Below are positions 29,093 through 40,033 of a stretch of 40,120 bases of DNA, piece after piece; within the stretch, counting starts at the first letter, position 1, and each line of letters begins with the position of its first letter. A model generated the notes under the pieces. The model saw only the letters and a program-made list of their open reading frames with translations, was not told the DNA's origin and searched no databases. This DNA comes from Ignavibacteria bacterium (lineage in GTDB: Bacteria; Bacteroidota; Ignavibacteria; Kapaibacteriales; UBA4661), in the NCBI GenBank assembly GCA_014654705.1, contig JACVZY010000064.1, positions 1 through 40,120 of the forward strand, written 5' to 3'. Made by a program: the position numbers and the translations under genes.

Positions 29093-29650
29093 TTATTTTT
29101 TCCATTTGATATTGCAGCCAATACTTGGCTTTTGTTCTTGACGAATGGCTTCACCGGGCAAAAGCGCATCCAAGGCGGCTCGCAGATCGTGTCCACTTGG
29201 CGGAATATCGTTTCCTGGGCGTGCATCATCGAATTGTCCGCGATAAACGCAGAGCAGTTCTGCATCGAAGACGAAAAAATCGGGTGTGCAGGCTGCTTTG
29301 TATGCCCGCGCTACGTCTTGTGTTTCGTCGTAGCAGTACGGAAAAGGGTAGCCAAATTCCAGTGCGTGATATTTCATTTTGTCGGGCGCATCGTCGGGGT
29401 AGAGTTCCACGTCGTTAGAACTGATTGCCACAAACGAGCATCCGTGCGGTATGTAGTCCTTCGCAAGGCGCACAAGTTCAGCGTTCAGAAGCATCACATA
29501 GGGACAGTGATTGCAGATGAACATGATGACGGTTGCTTTTTCGCCGCGCACATCCTCAAGCGAAGTGGGCTTTCCATACACGACTTCGGGAAGTGTGAAA
29601 TCGGGCGCTGGTGTTCCAAGTGGAATCATAGTGGAAGGGGTTGCTGCCAT
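29093..29650 (-). CDS. Thioredoxin-like (AhpC/TSA-type redoxin) protein, CNHC motif
   Basis: The 185-residue product has a peroxiredoxin/thioredoxin fold: PAPDFTLPEV at the start, a VIMFICNHCPYV segment with Cys pair C46/C49 followed by P50, and the C-terminal PSIGCNIKW signature seen in a widespread thioredoxin-family group. No signal peptide is evident, so it should be cytosolic. Its substrate is unknown. It is the first gene of the minus-strand block and is divergent from the export cassette, sharing a 257-base upstream region with it. An alternative start is Met8. Confidence 0.88.
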   Translation of the reverse strand: MAATPSTMIPLGTPAPDFTLPEVVYGKPTSLEDVRGEKATVIMFICNHCPYVMLLNAELVRLAKDYIPHGCSFVAISSNDVELYPDDAPDKMKYHALEFGYPFPYCYDETQDVARAYKAACTPDFFVFDAELLCVYRGQFDDARPGNDIPPSGHDLRAALDALLPGEAIRQEQKPSIGCNIKWKK

Positions 29651-29755
29651 AATACCAAAAATGAGTGCTGTGTTGCAAATGAATGAAGTGGAAAGTGAGC
29701 AAATATGCTGCTTTTGTCCGCTTCTGCCAAAAGTTTCTTTTCGTGTAGGCGAGCC

Positions 29756-29791
29756 TATCCGCTATCGGACGCACTTGTCCGTTTTCGGACA
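29756..29791 (+). promoter_or_regulatory. Tandem palindromic operator, probable activator (UAS) sites
   Basis: The second site (29776-29791) is the perfect palindrome TGTCCG-TTTT-CGGACA. The first (29756-29771) is TATCCG-CTAT-CGGACG, differing at one base per half-site. Their centres are exactly 20 bp apart, about two helical turns, so two dimers would bind the same DNA face. They end 53 bp before the sigma-54-type promoter, a usual distance for NtrC-type activators. A third half-site, TGTCCG at 29715-29720, lies further upstream. Binding by the activator encoded at 35159 is an inference. Confidence 0.7.
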
Positions 29792-29844
29792 CATTGTTCG
29801 TGCTGTGTTTGTCTGAAAGCCGCATACAATCTAGCTTTGCGTTT

Positions 29845-29860
29845 TGGCACAGTTATTGGC
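29845..29860 (+). promoter_or_regulatory. Probable sigma-54 (-24/-12) promoter
   Basis: TGGCAC at 29845-29850 and TTGGC at 29856-29860 resemble the sigma-54 consensus TGGCAC-N5-TTGC. The -24 element is perfect. The -12 element has TTGG where TTGC is expected, with GC one base later. Transcription would start near 29871, leaving a leader of about 37 bases before the ATG at 29908. The palindromes upstream and the sigma-54 activator gene in the same cluster support this call. Confidence 0.65.
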
Positions 29861-29907
29861 TATTCTTCATGAGCAATATCATATTTCACTCCTAATTTTT
29901 TCACAGT

Positions 29908-31173
29908 ATGGACAGAGAACTTTCTACACGAGCCGTCTGGCAAGGGCGCATGAAATCTGCGCTCAAGATTGTTCTTCCGCTTGGGGTAGTCCTTGTGGCA
30001 GCAGCCTACGCGGGCGGACTCATGGCTCCAAGCATTGAAGGGAATCGGATTCGCACGGCGATTGTCGAAGCAGGTAGTATCGAAGGGACGCTGGATGCGA
30101 CAGGCGTAGTCATGCCGGAATTTGATTTGGTAATGAACAGCCCCGTTGAAGCCCGCGTCGTGCGAGTGCTGCGACGTACGGGCGATAGCGTTCGGAAAGG
30201 TGATGCAGTGCTGGAATTGGACGTGCGCGGAGCAGAACTGGCGCTGGAGAAACTCAGCGACAACATCGCGCTCAAGCGAAATGCGGAGGCGCAGCTCAAA
30301 GCCACGCTGACCGCAAAACTTCAACAACTCGAAAACACCATTCGCATCAAACGGCGCGAAATTGAATCGGACAGTAATGCGGTCGAGCAAAACCGCAAGC
30401 TCTTCGACAAAGGCTATATCTCAAGCGGGGAATTACAGAAGTTTATCATTCAAGCGAAAAAGTCTGCCGATGAACTGGATGCGCTCCAGAAAGATTACCG
30501 CAATGCACAGGTTTCATCGGCATTACAGCAAGAAGGTGTTGCGCTTGAAGTGGCGATATTGCAAAAAGATAAAACCCAATCCATACGCGAGTTAGAGCAA
30601 GCAAGCGCAAAAGCAGAGCAAAATGGCGTGGTAACGTGGGTGCTGCAAACCGTCGGTGCGCAAGTCCGCAAAGGCGAGATGATAGCTCGCATTGCCGATT
30701 TGACCTCGTTCCGCATTGATGCCAGCATATCCGATATGCAGCGAAGTCGGTTGTCCGTCGGTATGCCCGTGCGGGTGAATGTTGGTGCGGGTGTGCAGCC
30801 GTTGGAAGGTTTTGTGAGCGGCGTGCAGCCGACGGTTGAAAATGGTGTGGTGAAGTTTACCGTGGCTCTGCACAGCAAAGCGCATTCAGCCCTGAAACCC
30901 AACGTGCGAGTAGATGTAGGCGTGGTGGTAGCGCAAAACGCTCAAACGCTTGTCGTGAAGCGCGGTGCGTTCTTCCGCGGCGAAGGCAGTGCGGATGTGT
31001 TTGTCCTGCGCTCGGAAGGTGCGAAGCGCTTTGCTGTCAGAACGCGCGTCGTTATCGGCATGGCAAATACAGAGTTCTGCGAGATTCGGAGCGGCTTGCA
31101 GGCGGGCGACGCGGTGATTCTCTCCGATATGAAACAGTATGAAGAGCATGAAAAAATCAAGATTACCAATTGA
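29908..31173 (+). CDS. MacA/HlyD-type membrane fusion protein
   Basis: The 421-residue periplasmic adaptor has one N-terminal membrane helix (about residues 18-40), a split lipoyl-like domain (SPVEARVVRVLRRTGDSVRK, and the returning half GVVTWVLQTVGAQVRKGE) and a long coiled-coil hairpin (about 115-235). A beta-barrel and membrane-proximal part follow (IDASISDMQRSRLSVGMPV to the end). Such proteins link an inner-membrane pump to an outer-membrane channel of the TolC type; no TolC gene is in the window, so a channel encoded elsewhere would be needed. It is the first gene after the sigma-54-type promoter. No Shine-Dalgarno sequence precedes its ATG. Confidence 0.92.
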   Translation: MDRELSTRAVWQGRMKSALKIVLPLGVVLVAAAYAGGLMAPSIEGNRIRTAIVEAGSIEGTLDATGVVMPEFDLVMNSPVEARVVRVLRRTGDSVRKGDAVLELDVRGAELALEKLSDNIALKRNAEAQLKATLTAKLQQLENTIRIKRREIESDSNAVEQNRKLFDKGYISSGELQKFIIQAKKSADELDALQKDYRNAQVSSALQQEGVALEVAILQKDKTQSIRELEQASAKAEQNGVVTWVLQTVGAQVRKGEMIARIADLTSFRIDASISDMQRSRLSVGMPVRVNVGAGVQPLEGFVSGVQPTVENGVVKFTVALHSKAHSALKPNVRVDVGVVVAQNAQTLVVKRGAFFRGEGSADVFVLRSEGAKRFAVRTRVVIGMANTEFCEIRSGLQAGDAVILSDMKQYEEHEKIKITN

Positions 31174-31290: not shown

Positions 31291-32013
<723 letters not shown>

Positions 32014-32044: not shown

Positions 32045-33310
32045 ATGCTTCGTAATTATCTTCTCATCGCGTGGAAAGTTTTGCTCCGGCGGAAATTTTT
32101 CACCTTCATTAGCCTCGTGGGAATTAGCCTCACACTGGCGACACTGCTTGTGGTAACGGCGTTTGTGGATAACATTGCTCATCCGCCCCTACCATTTCTT
32201 AAAACCGATAGAATGTTATTCGTCCAGACAATGATGGCAAAGGGCGGGGATAATGTTATCTTTAGCAACGCCGGTTTCGGCTTTCACGACAAATATGTTC
32301 GACAGCTGCCGGATATAGAAGCAATAGCGGTGATAGGTAGCGGGATTATTGATGCGTATCCAAGTGGGCAGAAAGTCAGGATGAACGTCTCCTACACCGA
32401 AGCATCTTTTTGGCATATTATGGATTTTGAATTTATAGAAGGCGGCGGTTTTACTGAGGAGGATGTTGTCAATGTCAGAAACGTGGCGGTCATTTCCGAA
32501 GAAACCCGAACACGCTTTTTCGGGAACACGAGTGCGTTGGGAAAAATGCTGCCGATAGATGGCAAATCCTTTCGCGTCGTTGGTGTGGTGAAGAATGTTT
32601 CGGCGACATCTTTTGTGTATAGTGCCATTTGGTTTCCCATTACGATTGATTTTGTGCCGGAGGCGCGCTCAGAAATCGTGCAAGGCGTTGGCGGCGGCTA
32701 TCGGTCTATTATCCTCGCTAAAAGTGTGAATGACATTCCCCGCATCAAAAATAATTTTCAGACAATGCTTTCCCGCGTCCAGATTCCTACGCCACCCTTT
32801 ACCAAAATGTACGGTGGAGCTACGTCTATCTTGGAGTCTCATGCAATGGAACTTTTGAGTATGAGTGATGAGGATGAAGATTTCGGGACGAGAAACTCTT
32901 TGGCACTTATGATTGGAGTATTGGTTGCCGGAGCGCTTGCGTTTATGCTTCTTCCGGCGATAAATTTAGTCAATCTCAACGTGAGCCGCATCTTAGAGCG
33001 AGCATCTGAAATTGGTGTTCGCAAAGCATTCGGCGCAAGCAGACGTGCGCTTGTCGGGCAGTTTGTCGTCGAAAATTGTATTCTGACTGTGATTGGTGGT
33101 GCAATCGGTATCCTTCTGGCAGAGCTGTTTTTTCTCTGGTTTGCGTGGATTGATTTTGTGCCCCATACGACGTTTCATATCAACTACCGAGTGGTGGTTT
33201 ATGCAATAATCATGTCGCTTGTCTTTGGTTTGTTGTCAGGTGTTTTGCCTGCATGGAAAATGTCTCGTTTACCCATCGTCTCGTCCCTCAAAGGAGGCAT
33301 CAATGTTTAA
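32045..33310 (+). CDS. FtsX/MacB-type ABC permease 1
   Basis: The 421-residue protein has the four-helix MacB topology: one N-terminal helix (about residues 19-42), a large periplasmic domain (about 43-280) and three C-terminal helices. The conserved cytoplasmic coupling segment SEIGVRKAFGASRRALVGQF follows the second helix. It begins 31 bases after the ATPase gene and its last 8 bases overlap the next permease gene, so translation of the two is probably coupled. It should pair with permease 2 as a heterodimer. Confidence 0.92.
   Translation: MLRNYLLIAWKVLLRRKFFTFISLVGISLTLATLLVVTAFVDNIAHPPLPFLKTDRMLFVQTMMAKGGDNVIFSNAGFGFHDKYVRQLPDIEAIAVIGSGIIDAYPSGQKVRMNVSYTEASFWHIMDFEFIEGGGFTEEDVVNVRNVAVISEETRTRFFGNTSALGKMLPIDGKSFRVVGVVKNVSATSFVYSAIWFPITIDFVPEARSEIVQGVGGGYRSIILAKSVNDIPRIKNNFQTMLSRVQIPTPPFTKMYGGATSILESHAMELLSMSDEDEDFGTRNSLALMIGVLVAGALAFMLLPAINLVNLNVSRILERASEIGVRKAFGASRRALVGQFVVENCILTVIGGAIGILLAELFFLWFAWIDFVPHTTFHINYRVVVYAIIMSLVFGLLSGVLPAWKMSRLPIVSSLKGGINV
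33292..33297 (+). promoter_or_regulatory. Strong Shine-Dalgarno for permease 2
   Basis: AGGAGG lies 5 bases before the ATG at 33303, inside the last codons of permease 1. Other starts in this operon (29908, 31291, 32045, 34652, 35159, 38690) show no comparable motif. It therefore fixes the start of permease 2 and is unusual in this window. Confidence 0.75.
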
Positions 33311-34559
33311 TACTACTCATATCGCACACCTATTCAAACTGGTGTGGAATCGCAAGCGCTCTAATGCACTTATGATTATCGAACTCTTTGCAGCGTTTTT
33401 GGTCTTGTTTATGGTCACAACAGCCATTGTGCATTACTACACAAATTCCCGCAAGCCGCTTGGATTCTCGTATCAGAATGTCTGGAACGTCTCTGCGATT
33501 CCGAAAAATTCTTCCGAGTTATTCTTTAATCCGCAGGCAACGCAGTTATCGGCAGCAGCCCGCACTGCACAAATCATTCAATCCATGCTTGCTTCACAGC
33601 CCGAAATTGAGATGGTGAGTTTTGCGAGCACCGGACCATTTTCTTTCTCGACCAGAACGAGTCGTTACCGCGAGGGGCGCCGATTTGAGATAGAAGAGAT
33701 AGAAGTAACCGACGATGTGGACAAGACGCTGAATATAAGCGTCTCCGAGGGGCGTTGGTTTAACGCTTCCGATGATATGTACAACGGCACGACCGCTACT
33801 GTGAAGCCGGTGGTGATTAATGAAAAAACAGCAGAAACCTATTTCGGAACGGAGAGTCCGATTGGGAAATTGCTTCGAGAACCGGGACCGGATTCGCATG
33901 GTGTAACACAAACAGGACTGCGCGTTATCGGAGTAATGAAGGATTTTCGGAAAAATGGAGAGTATTCCATTTCGCGGAATATGCTTTTCAATCGCGTGAG
34001 TCTTCAGGATACTTCCACGCTCGTGCCTCATCAAATTCTTCTCAAAATGAAGTCCGGTGTGGATGCAGGGTATGAAGAAAAACTGATGAAGATTCTTCAG
34101 CAAACAGCACCGGACTGGTCGTTTCAAATTTCGACGTTGGAGCATGGACACGAAAATGTTTTGAAAGCATATCTCATACCTCTGGGGGTGGGCATGATCG
34201 TGGCGGTGTTTTTGCTAACGACCATTGCCTTGGGGTTAGTGGGAGTCGTCTGGCAGTCCGTCATGCGGCGTATGCGTGAGCTTGGGGTTCGGCGGGCATT
34301 TGGTGCTACTCAACGTGATATTCACGTGTTCGTTCTTGGTGAAATTGCTGTATTGACGACCTTTTCGGTGATATTGGGCGGCATTCTTCTGGCGCAGCTG
34401 CCCTTAATGCCCATTTTTGAATACGTCACACCGAATGTCTATGCCGCCGGTGTGGTGATTTCGATTCTGGGAATGTATCTCGGTACTGTGGTGTGTGCCT
34501 TGTATCCGAGCCGCATTGCAGCAGTGGTGCAGCCTTCGGAAGCACTGAGGTATGAGTAA
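33303..34559 (+). CDS. FtsX/MacB-type ABC permease 2
   Basis: The product has 418 residues from the ATG at 33303, which overlaps the permease 1 stop and follows a strong AGGAGG. An N-terminal helix (about residues 20-43), a periplasmic domain (about 44-290) and three C-terminal helices give the same fold as permease 1. The coupling segment here is MRELGVRRAFGATQRDIHVF. The two permeases differ widely in their periplasmic domains, pointing to distinct roles in one heterodimeric exporter. The exported compound is unknown; family members move peptides, lipoproteins, macrolides or lipids. Confidence 0.92.
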   Translation: MFNTTHIAHLFKLVWNRKRSNALMIIELFAAFLVLFMVTTAIVHYYTNSRKPLGFSYQNVWNVSAIPKNSSELFFNPQATQLSAAARTAQIIQSMLASQPEIEMVSFASTGPFSFSTRTSRYREGRRFEIEEIEVTDDVDKTLNISVSEGRWFNASDDMYNGTTATVKPVVINEKTAETYFGTESPIGKLLREPGPDSHGVTQTGLRVIGVMKDFRKNGEYSISRNMLFNRVSLQDTSTLVPHQILLKMKSGVDAGYEEKLMKILQQTAPDWSFQISTLEHGHENVLKAYLIPLGVGMIVAVFLLTTIALGLVGVVWQSVMRRMRELGVRRAFGATQRDIHVFVLGEIAVLTTFSVILGGILLAQLPLMPIFEYVTPNVYAAGVVISILGMYLGTVVCALYPSRIAAVVQPSEALRYE

Positions 34560-34651
34560 CACAGCCTTGTTCTTGCGACTTGCGGAGAGTTTTTGTAGAT
34601 TGGGATGAACTTGCTTGCTGTACTCTTTTCTTTCAACAATTCTCAATCATA

Positions 34652-34885
34652 ATGGCTACTTTGGAACACGCACTGGAACTCGTCTCGGAGCTTTCCCGCG
34701 AAGAGCAAAACGAAGTAGAAGAAATTCTCCGCAAGCGCCGGATTGAAGCACGGCGCGAGGAAATTGTCGCTAATGCCCGCGAAGCAATAGTTGAAGACGA
34801 TGCGGGGCTTTTGCGCTCGGAAACTGCTTCAGAACTCATTCAACGCCTACGAAGTCTCACGGAATCTGCTAATGCGATCGATTAG
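34652..34885 (+). CDS. Probable antitoxin of a YafQ/RelE-type pair
   Basis: The 77-residue product is highly charged and predicted to be helical (SELSREEQNEVEEILRKRR). It has the size and layout of small antitoxins paired with RelE/YafQ-type toxins: an N-terminal helical part and a flexible C-terminal part. I do not see a clear DNA-binding fold. It overlaps the toxin gene by 14 bases, as is usual for such pairs. The 92-base gap before it could hold its own promoter; none is recognised. Confidence 0.75.
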   Translation: MATLEHALELVSELSREEQNEVEEILRKRRIEARREEIVANAREAIVEDDAGLLRSETASELIQRLRSLTESANAID

Positions 34886-35156
34886 GACTTCGACAAAATT
34901 TGACCGCCTTTATGCAAAATTTATACGCAATAATCAACGTTTGCAGCAAGATGTAGAGCGGTCTTTCATTCTTTTAGCTGAGGACACTGCTCATCCTGAA
35001 CTCAAATCACATCCGCTTAAAGGGCAGCTTTGGGGATTCAGTGCTTGTTCTTGTGGTTATGACTGCCGTATTATTTTTCAGATTCGCCGTGACGAGGCGA
35101 CAAACGAAGAATACATCCTGCTCGTGGACATCGGCACACACGATGAAGTGTATTGA
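34872..35156 (+). CDS. YafQ/RelE-family mRNA interferase toxin
   Basis: The product has 94 residues from the ATG at 34872. It shows the conserved pattern of this family: TSTKFDRLYAKFIRNN, then HPLKGQLWGF, CGYDCRIIFQI and the C-terminal ILLVDIGTHDEVY. His47 and His90 match the positions of histidines important for RNA cleavage in E. coli YafQ, so it may be active. It would cut mRNA on the ribosome unless bound by the antitoxin. Its stop is only 2 bases before the ATG of the sigma-54 activator. An in-frame start further upstream at 34791 lies inside the antitoxin gene and is rejected. Confidence 0.85.
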   Translation: MRSIRTSTKFDRLYAKFIRNNQRLQQDVERSFILLAEDTAHPELKSHPLKGQLWGFSACSCGYDCRIIFQIRRDEATNEEYILLVDIGTHDEVY

Positions 35157-35158
35157 CC

Positions 35159-36568
35159 ATGACTCAAACCATTCTCATCATAGACGACGACCGCGCCGTG
35201 CAGCGCTCTATCGCGATGGCACTCAAGCAAGCGGGGTATCATTCCGAAAGCGCTTCTTCTGCGGAGGAAGCGCTTTCGGTCTTGCATACAGGCGATTTCG
35301 CGGCTGCCGTGCAAGACATGAATTTTTCGCGCAGCACGAGTGGCGAAGAAGGTTTGTCCTTGCTGGAGCGCATCAAATCCGGCTTTCCCACTTTGCCCGT
35401 GCTGCTCATCACGGCGTGGGGGTCGGTGGAACTGGCTGTCGAAGGTATGAAGCGCGGGGCAGCTGATTTTATGCTGAAGCCGTGGGCAAATGAAGAACTC
35501 GTGCGCCGTCTGGAAACCTCACTGTCGCTTGCTTCAAACGGAAATAATGGCAAAGAAAATACTCTCAGCACTGCTTCTTCTAACAGCGTCCTCACACGAG
35601 CGAAACTTGATGCGGAGTATGATTTTACAGGTATTATCGGCGAAGACCCGAAATTGCTGGCGGTGTTGGCGGTTATCGGGCGTATTGCCCAAACTGACGC
35701 ACCGGTGCTGATTACGGGCGAGAGCGGTTCGGGCAAAGAACTGATTGCTGATGCGATTGTCAGGAACTCTCGCAGGCGCGATGCGTCTTTTGTGCGGGTG
35801 AACATGGGCGGTATTACGCCAACGCTTTTCGAGAGTGAACTTTTCGGACACGTCAAAGGCGCTTTCACGGGCGCAGTCAGCGACCGCAAGGGCAGATTCG
35901 ACCACGCACACGGCGGGACGATTTTCTTGGATGAAATTGGTGATTTGGATGCTTCTTCGCAAGTAAAACTCCTTCGCGTCTTGCAAGAACGCACCTTCGA
36001 GGCAGTTGGCTCCAGCACGACCAAAACCGTGGATGCGCGGGTGATTTCTGCCACAAACCGCAATCTTTCTGCCATGATAGAGCGTGGCACGTTCCGCGAG
36101 GATTTGCTCTATCGCTTGAATTTGATTGCGGTGCATTTGCCTCCGCTTCGCGAGCGCACTGGCGACATTCGGTTACTCACGGAACATTTTTTGGCGAGTG
36201 CTGCGCGGCAGTATTTCCGTGAGGGGTTGAAGATTCAACCCGACGCGCTTCGGTGGCTGGAATCACGCCCGTTCACGGGCAACATCCGGGAACTGAAGCA
36301 TTGCATAGAGCGCACGGTTTTGTTGGCTGCGGGCGACCGCCTCACGGTGCAGGATTTCCAAACTGCGCTTGCGGTGGAATCGCCGGAACACCGCACAGGT
36401 ACGCTTCCGGCGGTCGGCACGATGACGCTGGACGATATTGAGCGGGCAATGATTCTGAAAACAATTGAGCAATTTCCGGGCAACGTCAGCCGCATAGCCG
36501 AAGCACTGGGGCTGACGCGGCAAGCGCTGTACAGGCGTTTGGAGAAATTTGGGTTGGATGTGGGGTGA
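35159..36568 (+). CDS. NtrC-type sigma-54-dependent response regulator
   Basis: The 469-residue activator has a receiver (residues 1-120; D9-D11, phospho-acceptor D53, T85, K107). Its AAA+ domain (about 155-380) has Walker A GESGSGKE (187-194), the sigma-54 contact loop GAFTGA (234-239) and Walker B TIFLDEIGDL (254-263). A C-terminal Fis-type helix-turn-helix (about 440-465, VSRIAEALGLTRQALYRRL) completes it. It should activate a sigma-54 promoter when phosphorylated. The natural partner is the kinase at 38690 and the natural target the promoter at 29845. A TTG at 35153 is in frame but overlaps the toxin gene; the ATG at 35159 is preferred. Confidence 0.95.
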   Translation: MTQTILIIDDDRAVQRSIAMALKQAGYHSESASSAEEALSVLHTGDFAAAVQDMNFSRSTSGEEGLSLLERIKSGFPTLPVLLITAWGSVELAVEGMKRGAADFMLKPWANEELVRRLETSLSLASNGNNGKENTLSTASSNSVLTRAKLDAEYDFTGIIGEDPKLLAVLAVIGRIAQTDAPVLITGESGSGKELIADAIVRNSRRRDASFVRVNMGGITPTLFESELFGHVKGAFTGAVSDRKGRFDHAHGGTIFLDEIGDLDASSQVKLLRVLQERTFEAVGSSTTKTVDARVISATNRNLSAMIERGTFREDLLYRLNLIAVHLPPLRERTGDIRLLTEHFLASAARQYFREGLKIQPDALRWLESRPFTGNIRELKHCIERTVLLAAGDRLTVQDFQTALAVESPEHRTGTLPAVGTMTLDDIERAMILKTIEQFPGNVSRIAEALGLTRQALYRRLEKFGLDVG

Positions 36569-38685
<2,117 letters not shown>

Positions 38686-38689
38686 AACT

Positions 38690-40033
38690 ATGACACTCCG
38701 CACTCAGTTTATACTCTATCTGGCGGTGCTTCATTGTTTGCTTGCTGCTGCTTCGGGGTTTGCCTTGTGGCGTGTACATCCCGCATGGATACTGCTGGTG
38801 GAAGCGGTGTGCGGCGTGTCGTTTTGGATTGCATTTGTCCTCTTTCGCCGTTTTTACGAGCCACTTCGATTGCTCAAGTCCAGTGCTGATTTTTTGAAGG
38901 AAACGGATTTTTCTACAACACTACTCCCAACGGGACAACCCGAAACTGACGCACTCGTCAGCGTTTACAACACGATGCTGACCACGCTTCGTACAGAGCG
39001 CGTTCGTGTGGAGGAAAAAGGAATTTTACTGCAAACGCTCATCAATGCTTCGCCCACCGGTATTCTGCTGTGCGATGAATCGCTGACGGTGCTGTCCGTG
39101 AATCCTGCATTAGAAGCGATGTTTGCCATGATTGCCAAAGACATTATCGGAAACCGCTTGGAAACGCATATTGCGCCTTTCGCTGAACTTATGCAACGTA
39201 TCAGCATTGGAGCATCGGAGGTCTTCACTCATAAAGCACGACGCTTCAAGGTTCATAAAGCGGGCTTTGTAGAGAAAGGCGTGCCGCATATTATCGTGCT
39301 TGTGGAGGAACTTACTGACGAGCTACGGGCTTCGGAAAAAACTGCGTATCAGCGCATCATTCGCGTTCTGGCGCACGAGGTGAACAATTCTACCGGAGCG
39401 GCGCGGTCGCTGATGGAATCTGCTTTGCATTACGAACGCTACTTCGTGCCGGAGATGCCAGATGATGAGCGCACGGACTTCCGCGACGCACTCTCGGTCG
39501 CAAGCGAGCGATTGGCGGGGTTGGGCGAGTTCATGCGGGAGTACGCCCATGTGGTGCGCTTGCCTACGCCGAAGCCGCAATCCTTCGACATCGGCGAACT
39601 TCTCGTTACGACAGCAACGCTTTTTGGAGAAGTTTGTAAGGCTCATAACATCACGCTCCGCGTCATTACGCCAAACGACGCAATGATGATTTATGCCGAT
39701 AAAGTACAGTTGCAGCAAGTGCTCACCAATCTGACGAAAAATGCGATAGAAGCTGTGCAGGGTGTCGAAGATACCACGCAAGACCGCTCGGTAACGCTGT
39801 CTGTGCGCCGTCGTGATAGTGCATCGGTGAGTATTGCCGTAGAAGATACGGGAGCAGGCTTGAACGCAAGCGCGGCAGCGAATATCCTCACGCCATTTTT
39901 CACCACGAAAGAAACGGGTCAGGGAATTGGGCTAATGCTCGTGCGCGAAATAGTCGCTGCGCATGGTTTTGCGTTTTCGCTGGAGAACCGTGCGGGAGGT
40001 GGGGCGAGGGCGGAGATGGTGGTAGCGCAGTAA
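38690..40033 (+). CDS. NtrB/NtrY-like membrane sensor histidine kinase
   Basis: The 447-residue product has two N-terminal membrane helices (about residues 7-27 and 32-53) with almost no periplasmic loop, a HAMP-like linker (about 54-110) and a PAS domain (about 115-210, ASPTGILLCDESLTVLSVNP). The kinase H box is LAHEVNNSTG (His about 229), N box NLTKNAIEAV, G1 DTGAGL, F box FFTTKE and G2 GQGIGL. The short loop suggests it senses a membrane or cytoplasmic cue rather than a periplasmic ligand. It should phosphorylate the NtrC-type regulator encoded at 35159; two redox-like genes lie between them. Confidence 0.93.
   Translation: MTLRTQFILYLAVLHCLLAAASGFALWRVHPAWILLVEAVCGVSFWIAFVLFRRFYEPLRLLKSSADFLKETDFSTTLLPTGQPETDALVSVYNTMLTTLRTERVRVEEKGILLQTLINASPTGILLCDESLTVLSVNPALEAMFAMIAKDIIGNRLETHIAPFAELMQRISIGASEVFTHKARRFKVHKAGFVEKGVPHIIVLVEELTDELRASEKTAYQRIIRVLAHEVNNSTGAARSLMESALHYERYFVPEMPDDERTDFRDALSVASERLAGLGEFMREYAHVVRLPTPKPQSFDIGELLVTTATLFGEVCKAHNITLRVITPNDAMMIYADKVQLQQVLTNLTKNAIEAVQGVEDTTQDRSVTLSVRRRDSASVSIAVEDTGAGLNASAAANILTPFFTTKETGQGIGLMLVREIVAAHGFAFSLENRAGGGARAEMVVAQ

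Follow-up and report, generated by a model that had tools for sequence, protein, structure and literature searches.

Paired NtrC-type activator sites and a sigma-54 promoter predicted to control a MacAB-like export cassette in an Ignavibacteria bacterium

It is proposed that positions 29756-29859 of the DNA analysed here, a stretch of 40,120 nucleotides (the window, which is contig C64 of its own genome, the 5.72-Mb assembly G000), constitute a sigma-54 control region that would be bound by the NtrC-type response regulator encoded from 35153, which the sensor histidine kinase encoded from 38690 would phosphorylate to turn on an export cassette; we hold this combined reading with good confidence. 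Sequence comparison lends good support to a sigma-54 promoter under the control of paired NtrC-type sites; the promoter and its matched sites are very probably a real two-component switch turning on the export genes, and the main binder is likely to be the 35153 regulator rather than its paralogue on contig C111. The features concerned are as follows.

29715-29720, + strand: isolated half-site TGTCCG
29756-29771, + strand: predicted distal activator site TATCCGCTATCGGACG, conserved in position in G001 and G007
29776-29791, + strand: predicted proximal activator site TGTCCGTTTTCGGACA, a perfect palindrome unique in G000
29817-29834, + strand: third element, AAGCCGCATACAATCTAG, conserved with consensus AAGSCGCATAAAATCTTG and beginning 29 bp 5' of the -24 GG
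29845-29859, + strand: sigma-54 -24/-12 element TGGCACAGTTATTGG, TGGCAC-AGTTA-TTGG, with orthologous elements before other macA genes
29908-31173, + strand: macA-like periplasmic adaptor of the HlyD family (PF13437; best NCBIfam model DarC, below cut-off)
31291-32013, + strand: ABC ATPase of MacB/LolD/DarD type (PF00005; below the NCBIfam cut-offs shown)
32045-33310, + strand: MacB_PCD/FtsX permease 1 (Pfam; first half of TIGR03434 ADOP, below cut-off)
33219-34559, + strand: MacB_PCD/FtsX permease 2 (Pfam; second half of TIGR03434, below cut-off)
35153-36568, + strand: NtrC-type response regulator with receiver, AAA+ and Fis-type HTH domains, likely ATG at 35159 (Pfam, alignment)
38690-40033, + strand: PAS/HATPase sensor histidine kinase, H229 in AHEVNNS (Pfam, alignment)

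The region 29756-29791 holds two 16-bp palindromes, 20 bp centre to centre; one matches TGTCCG-N4-CGGACA perfectly, the distal one (TATCCGCTATCGGACG) has two mismatches in 12, and 53 bp separate the perfect palindrome from TGGCAC at 29845-29850. A first-pass annotation had described this element, the palindrome and its near copy, and all are present where it placed them. The half-site TGTCCG that it added is indeed at 29715; beyond the window's genome it is conserved only in the nearest relative, G001, and is missing from G007, and it is probably not functional. Three matches to the palindrome with at most two mismatches occur in the window (mean 1.41 in shuffled sequences), and since 15 of 100 shuffles also reach three, the near copy alone is unremarkable; the perfect palindrome is present as a single copy in the 5.72-Mb genome (reversed control 0). 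The pattern TTTGGCAY-N5-TTGS is found once in the window against an expected 0.07, a count reached in six of 100 shuffles, and TTTGGCAY-N5-TTG at 25 places in G000 (eight in the reversed control). An rpoN gene is encoded on contig C51 of the same genome (PF04552 above cut-off), and the position of the sigma-54 element predicts a transcript start at about 29871. The -12 element of the window is TTGG where the consensus is TTGC; it is varied among promoters of the host's order and reads TTGCA in five distant promoters from other families. An organism-wide shift of the -12 element to TTGG was considered and dropped, because the base after TTG varies and some sites read TTGC.

Conservation, rather than these local statistics, is the decisive evidence for the predicted sites. 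Orthologues of MacA, 94 to 40% identical, are found in G001, G002, G005, G006, G007, G009 and G018; the G002 gene is cut at a contig end, leaving seven macA genes with upstream sequence, the window's own included. All seven are preceded by a site pair with 4 bp between the sites and by a -24-like element, which supports the annotated sigma-54 promoter with paired activator sites before the macA cassette. The -24 element of the orthologues is TGGCAC, with TGGTAC in G009 and TGGCAT in G018. The perfect palindrome occurs in three of ten family genomes (G000, G001 and G007), once each and before macA, and nowhere in the reversed control. Mismatches in the 12 positions of the distal and proximal sites number two and none in these three genomes, three and two in G005 and G006, four and one in G009, and six and two in G018; with degenerate sites in four of the seven and three to six mismatches in their distal copy, spacing counts as much as letters for the second copy in those four. 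A comparison of G000 with G007 gives 32 identical positions out of 36 for the site pair, 14 of 19 for the third element and 14 of 18 for the sigma-54 element, against 68 of 184 for the remaining upstream sequence. The divergent gene upstream of macA is present in G001 and absent from the 19-kb stretch of G007, which indicates that the site pair belongs with macA.

The same comparison bears on whether the repeats are merely the hairpin of a transcription terminator, a reading suggested by a pattern scan in which 29776-29791 appears terminator-like on the + strand. The upstream neighbour (29093-29650) is encoded on the - strand, and the palindromes therefore do not seem to follow the end of any + strand gene; moreover, the T-run at 29776-29791 is weak, terminator-like sites in the region number 13 against 14.8 in shuffles, and the sequence is conserved as two sites and not as a stem with a T-run. 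We regard a terminator here as exceedingly improbable.

The spacing of the sites, counted in bases between the end of the second site and the -24 GG, falls into two classes in the host's order, 52-55 bp in 11 promoters and 64-66 bp in 14, which differ by one helical turn and account for all 25 measured promoters. The macA distances of G005 (54), G006 (54) and G018 (52) are among the 25; two diverged G009 pairs (66 and 66) were left uncounted, and arrays of the order with no fitting -24 element (L181 and L205) stand outside the set. In a phasing test of 24 promoters, not one of 20,000 random sets equalled their phasing at 10, 10.5 or 11 bp; the 25th promoter, G001:C417 (distance 64), was not part of this test, and the 25 are related by descent and thus are not independent events. 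Between the sites and the -24 element, sequences in the host's order are little alike except for the third element. Outside the order, 14 distances fall at 52-54, 61-62 and 81-84 bp, with one at 137, and phasing this good arose in 9, 35 and 499 of 20,000 random sets for periods of 10.5, 10 and 11 bp, respectively; for a hand-chosen reduced set of 16 distances the corresponding numbers were 43, 75 and 1537. The 52-54 group outside the order (L188-L191, L196 and L197) was counted from a poor second site, and L192, for which a -24 match was not found, was left out of the distances.

Palindromes of such size are also typical of TetR-/MarR-like repressors, so that the two sites might be operators of an unrelated repressor with the sigma-54 element there by accident. 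Their size fits this idea, but no repressor is encoded among the nine scanned ORFs of the window, all 25 measured promoters show the sites in helical register with the -24 element, and across the class such arrays adjoin NtrC-type regulators or exporters; we consider it very improbable. Strand, the weak T-run, phasing and NtrC-type neighbours led us to reject the terminator and unrelated-repressor readings alike.

The class-wide evidence comes from pair scans of 391 genomes. Pairs with 4-bp spacing gave 23 rows, corresponding to 20 distinct arrays in 18 genomes (five rows in the reversed control), and pairs with 5-bp spacing gave 38 rows, corresponding to 19 distinct places in seven genomes (reversed control 0). 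Judged by comparison with proteins of the macA and C111 clusters, HlyD, MacB/FtsX or NtrC-type regulator genes adjoin 35 of the 39 distinct arrays (18 of 20 with 4-bp and 17 of 19 with 5-bp spacing), so the recurrence of the pair at exporter and regulator genes of related genomes, which the first-pass annotation had named as a check, is what the search returned. No exporter or regulator of this family was found within 1.5 kb of L181, L187 or L205 (G016:C9:7907-7943), nor at L203, which is on a short contig; a fitting -24 element was likewise not found at L181, L187 and L205, the last having one weak match at 111 bp. YTGGCAY lies on exactly one side in 15 of 16 five-bp loci and is present at three further loci too, and arrays in other families have GGC(A/C/G)Y-N5-TTG elements. 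Fourteen of the 4-bp arrays lie beyond the host's order, and several (L177, L182, L185, L186, L192 and L193) are situated between a divergent regulator gene and HlyD gene; the second site is poor, with four to six mismatches, in L188-L192, L196 and L197.

In G000 itself, the degenerate motif TGTYCR-N4-YGRACA occurs at 14 places (seven in the reversed control), nine of them in the two regulator clusters: one at macA and eight on C111, the other five being single sites in about the number expected by chance. The eight C111 sites make up four tandem pairs inside about 32 kb, each with a 5-bp gap and each followed by a TTTGGCAY element; these four are among the 35 arrays that adjoin exporter or regulator genes. 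One pair is located between the paralogous NtrC-type regulator gene and a divergent HlyD gene, and three precede MacB_PCD/FtsX permease genes 804 to 878 codons long, one of these at a distance of 0.8 kb.

This second cluster gives rise to the most serious alternative, namely that the C111 paralogue is the main binder of the macA sites, or a second one, macA being part of a wider exporter regulon and the 35153 regulator having a different role or one that overlaps. The C111 sites have the same consensus, TGTYCR-N4-YGRACA, and the same phasing; the Fis-type HTH segments of the two regulators, which are 42% identical overall, are similar; a close relative of the C111 paralogue is encoded in most genomes that carry the macA pair; and outside the host's order the 4-bp arrays adjoin relatives of the C111 regulator, which means that spacing does not separate the two proteins. 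Regulators at these outside arrays are 55-62% identical to the C111 paralogue and 40-44% to the window's regulator. Within the genus, by contrast, macA pairs are spaced by 4 bp with mostly CGGAC half-sites while C111 pairs are spaced by 5 bp with mostly TGAACA on one side, and all seven genomes with a macA pair have the 35153 regulator, either the window's own or an orthologue 56-95% identical to it. We therefore think this alternative unlikely and prefer the 35153 regulator, though the paralogue might bind as well. Because distant arrays adjoin C111-type regulators, the class-wide evidence supports a group of regulators and not the 35153 protein alone; what points to the window's own regulator as the probable binder is the set of seven macA orthologues. 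The predicted activator motif tracks a group of NtrC-type regulators and their HlyD/MacB/FtsX neighbours and is not private to one of them, since the C111 paralogue goes with nearly the same motif.

The regulator (ORF from 35153, ATG at 35159) and the kinase at 38690 are as the first-pass annotation described them. The regulator scores 223 bits against PF00158, and its receiver residues D11, D12, D55, T87 and K109 are invariant among 13 aligned sequences; the AAA+ signature is GAFTGA in the window regulator and its closest orthologues (G001, G002 and G007), whereas among the more distant orthologues and the paralogues it is GAFTSA in G009 and GAFTDA in the other eight of the 13. Residue H229 of the kinase is invariant in all six aligned sequences, including the C111 kinase. 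The best PDB matches of the regulator are the NtrC-family entries 4l4u and 3dzd and the NifA entry 9qq6, followed by 1ny5, and its best NCBIfam models are AtoC and NtrC, both below their cut-offs. Members of the NtrC family (NtrC1, NtrX, ZraR and AtoC) have the same receiver-AAA+-Fis HTH architecture and paired palindromes upstream of -24/-12 elements; the window system is unlike them in its motif TGTYCR-N4-YGRACA, its exporter targets and its sites, which in the host's order lie in a single helical register, 52-66 bp from their end to the -24 GG. A gene for a DUF255/thioredoxin-like protein (36850-38685) separates regulator and kinase, which adjoin each other in G007, G009 and G018.

Being the window's sole sigma-54 activator says little for the role of the 35153 protein, as the genome has nine strong sigma-54 activation domains. 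PF00158 gave 14 matches in G000, nine above 200 bits and five weak; the latter are probably other AAA+ proteins, and weak matches mean little because the family matched all 14 control genomes. Reading 38 regulator matches as 38 sigma-54 activators was rejected, since PF00158 gave only those 14. The statement that the cassette encodes its own activator is true of the window but not of G006, where macA and the regulator gene are inside different contigs and the site pair before macA is still present. A search of the 700 bp before the regulator gene, allowing up to three mismatches, found no site in G000, G001, G002 or G006 and one, with three mismatches, in G005; with no convincing site of its own before the gene, autoregulation could occur only via read-through from macA. 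Such read-through is possible, and a pattern scan of the + strand from 34457 to 36027 found no terminator-like sites.

We propose that one dimer of the 35153 regulator most likely sits on each palindrome, with about two helical turns from one palindrome to the other and a fixed register between the pair and the -24 element. Phosphorylation of the bound regulator by the 38690 kinase would then produce an active oligomer able to open the sigma-54 polymerase complex, and the export genes would be switched on. Binding, phosphorylation by this kinase and a start near 29871 are steps that we infer from the arrangement of the locus; the inducing signal, for which envelope stress or an exported compound is our guess, belongs with them.

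The export genes comprise an HlyD adaptor, an ABC ATPase and MacB_PCD/FtsX permeases, all detected by Pfam, which is the gene set of a MacAB-type exporter. In MacAB, MacB is one fused ATPase-permease protein; no such fusion is found here, the ATPase and two permeases being separate ORFs, and the cassette is hence called only MacAB-like. Scores are also below the DarBCD equivalog cut-offs (DarC 97.6 against 450, DarD 246 against 375, DarB 18.8 against 700). MacAB, the darobactin transporter DarBCD and ADOP permeases thus resemble the cassette in their HlyD adaptor, MacB/LolD-type ATPase and MacB_PCD/FtsX permeases, and differ from it in that here the ATPase is apart from the permease and the permease is two half-length proteins. 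The true start of permease 2 is probably later than the TTG of its ORF. The two permeases are 59 and 55% identical to those of G001 (L079:3669-6171), against 92-95% for MacA, ATPase, regulator and kinase, and look exchanged or fast-evolving. Between permeases and regulator, 34580-35156 contains a small ORF (101 aa from a TTG) and a YafQ-like toxin ORF (PF15738), probably a toxin-antitoxin pair, with the toxin stop adjoining the regulator start. Toxin relatives precede the regulator in G005 and G007, and a comparison of the G001, G002, G006, G009 and G018 loci found none; in G001 a small ORF between the ATPase and permease genes (L079:3092-3403) has, by eye, a RelE-type toxin look.

The third element, AAGSCGCATAAAATCTTG, starts 29-31 bp 5' of the -24 GG in promoters whose activator sites lie about 54 or about 65 bp away. 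The first-pass annotation mentions neither this element nor the one-turn phasing nor the second regulon on C111. A profile was built from 15 of 21 promoters, the G000 promoters and the near-identical macA promoter of G001 being left out; in leave-one-out scoring, 12 of the 15 exceeded 10 bits and 14 were located at exactly 30 bp. Three of 25 candidate sigma-54 sites of G000 score above 5 bits (the window, C111 HlyD and C93 promoters), while three of the five G000 regulon promoters misfit the candidate pattern and hence are not among the 25. With only three of 25 candidates scoring, a general role as a part of sigma-54 promoters is unsupported. The C93 promoter (L174:7560-7709) precedes a gene for a CAP-domain protein and carries the same third element together with other twin palindromes, TGTCAG-N6-YYGACA, with 31 bp from start to start and 43 bp between the nearer one and the GG; these palindromes are kept in G001. 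Among the loci compared (L174, L126 and L123), a G007 promoter has the third element without the TGTCAG-N6-YYGACA pair. The element thus goes with the promoter and not with the sites of the 35153 regulator, and is common to at least two promoter sets with different activator palindromes. We tentatively suggest, at somewhat less than even confidence, that this 18-bp sequence is a third functional element in a subset of Kapaibacterial sigma-54 promoters, where the polymerase alpha subunit, or else a bending or accessory protein, would make contact. Another possible reading is a sigma-70 -10 box (TACAAT); inspection by eye showed no conserved -35 to match.

Analogous systems are known. A comparative reconstruction of the sigma-54 regulons of Desulfovibrio (PMC4641369) presents, in passages of its text, the same logic of conserved activator sites near activator genes and activator sites commonly less than 100 nt from the promoter; the terms efflux and ABC transporter are absent from its main text. 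Dependence of sigma-54 enhancers on helical periodicity is likewise known: the Vibrio qrr and synthetic sigma-54 enhancers treated in parts of another paper (PMC4740811) share a sensitivity to a periodicity of about 10.5 bp, with synthetic-enhancer loops longer than 100 bp where the present register consists of two discrete distances in 25 promoters. The motif and regulon were found described nowhere in the literature searched, which is weak evidence as most subscription papers were outside its scope, and within the same scope no paper was found that joins Kapabacteria and sigma-54. That search mentions no third element, though the element itself was not its subject.

The kind of system is thus familiar; its novelty lies in the third element above all, and also in its motif, regulon and strict phasing. 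For an uncultured lineage, the analysis provides a predicted DNA motif and regulon for one group of NtrC-type regulators and links a sensor kinase to MacB/FtsX exporters. By comparison alone, it suggests that short activator-promoter distances keep to whole helical turns, and, if the reading of the third element is true, that element would let unusually close, rigidly phased sites activate.
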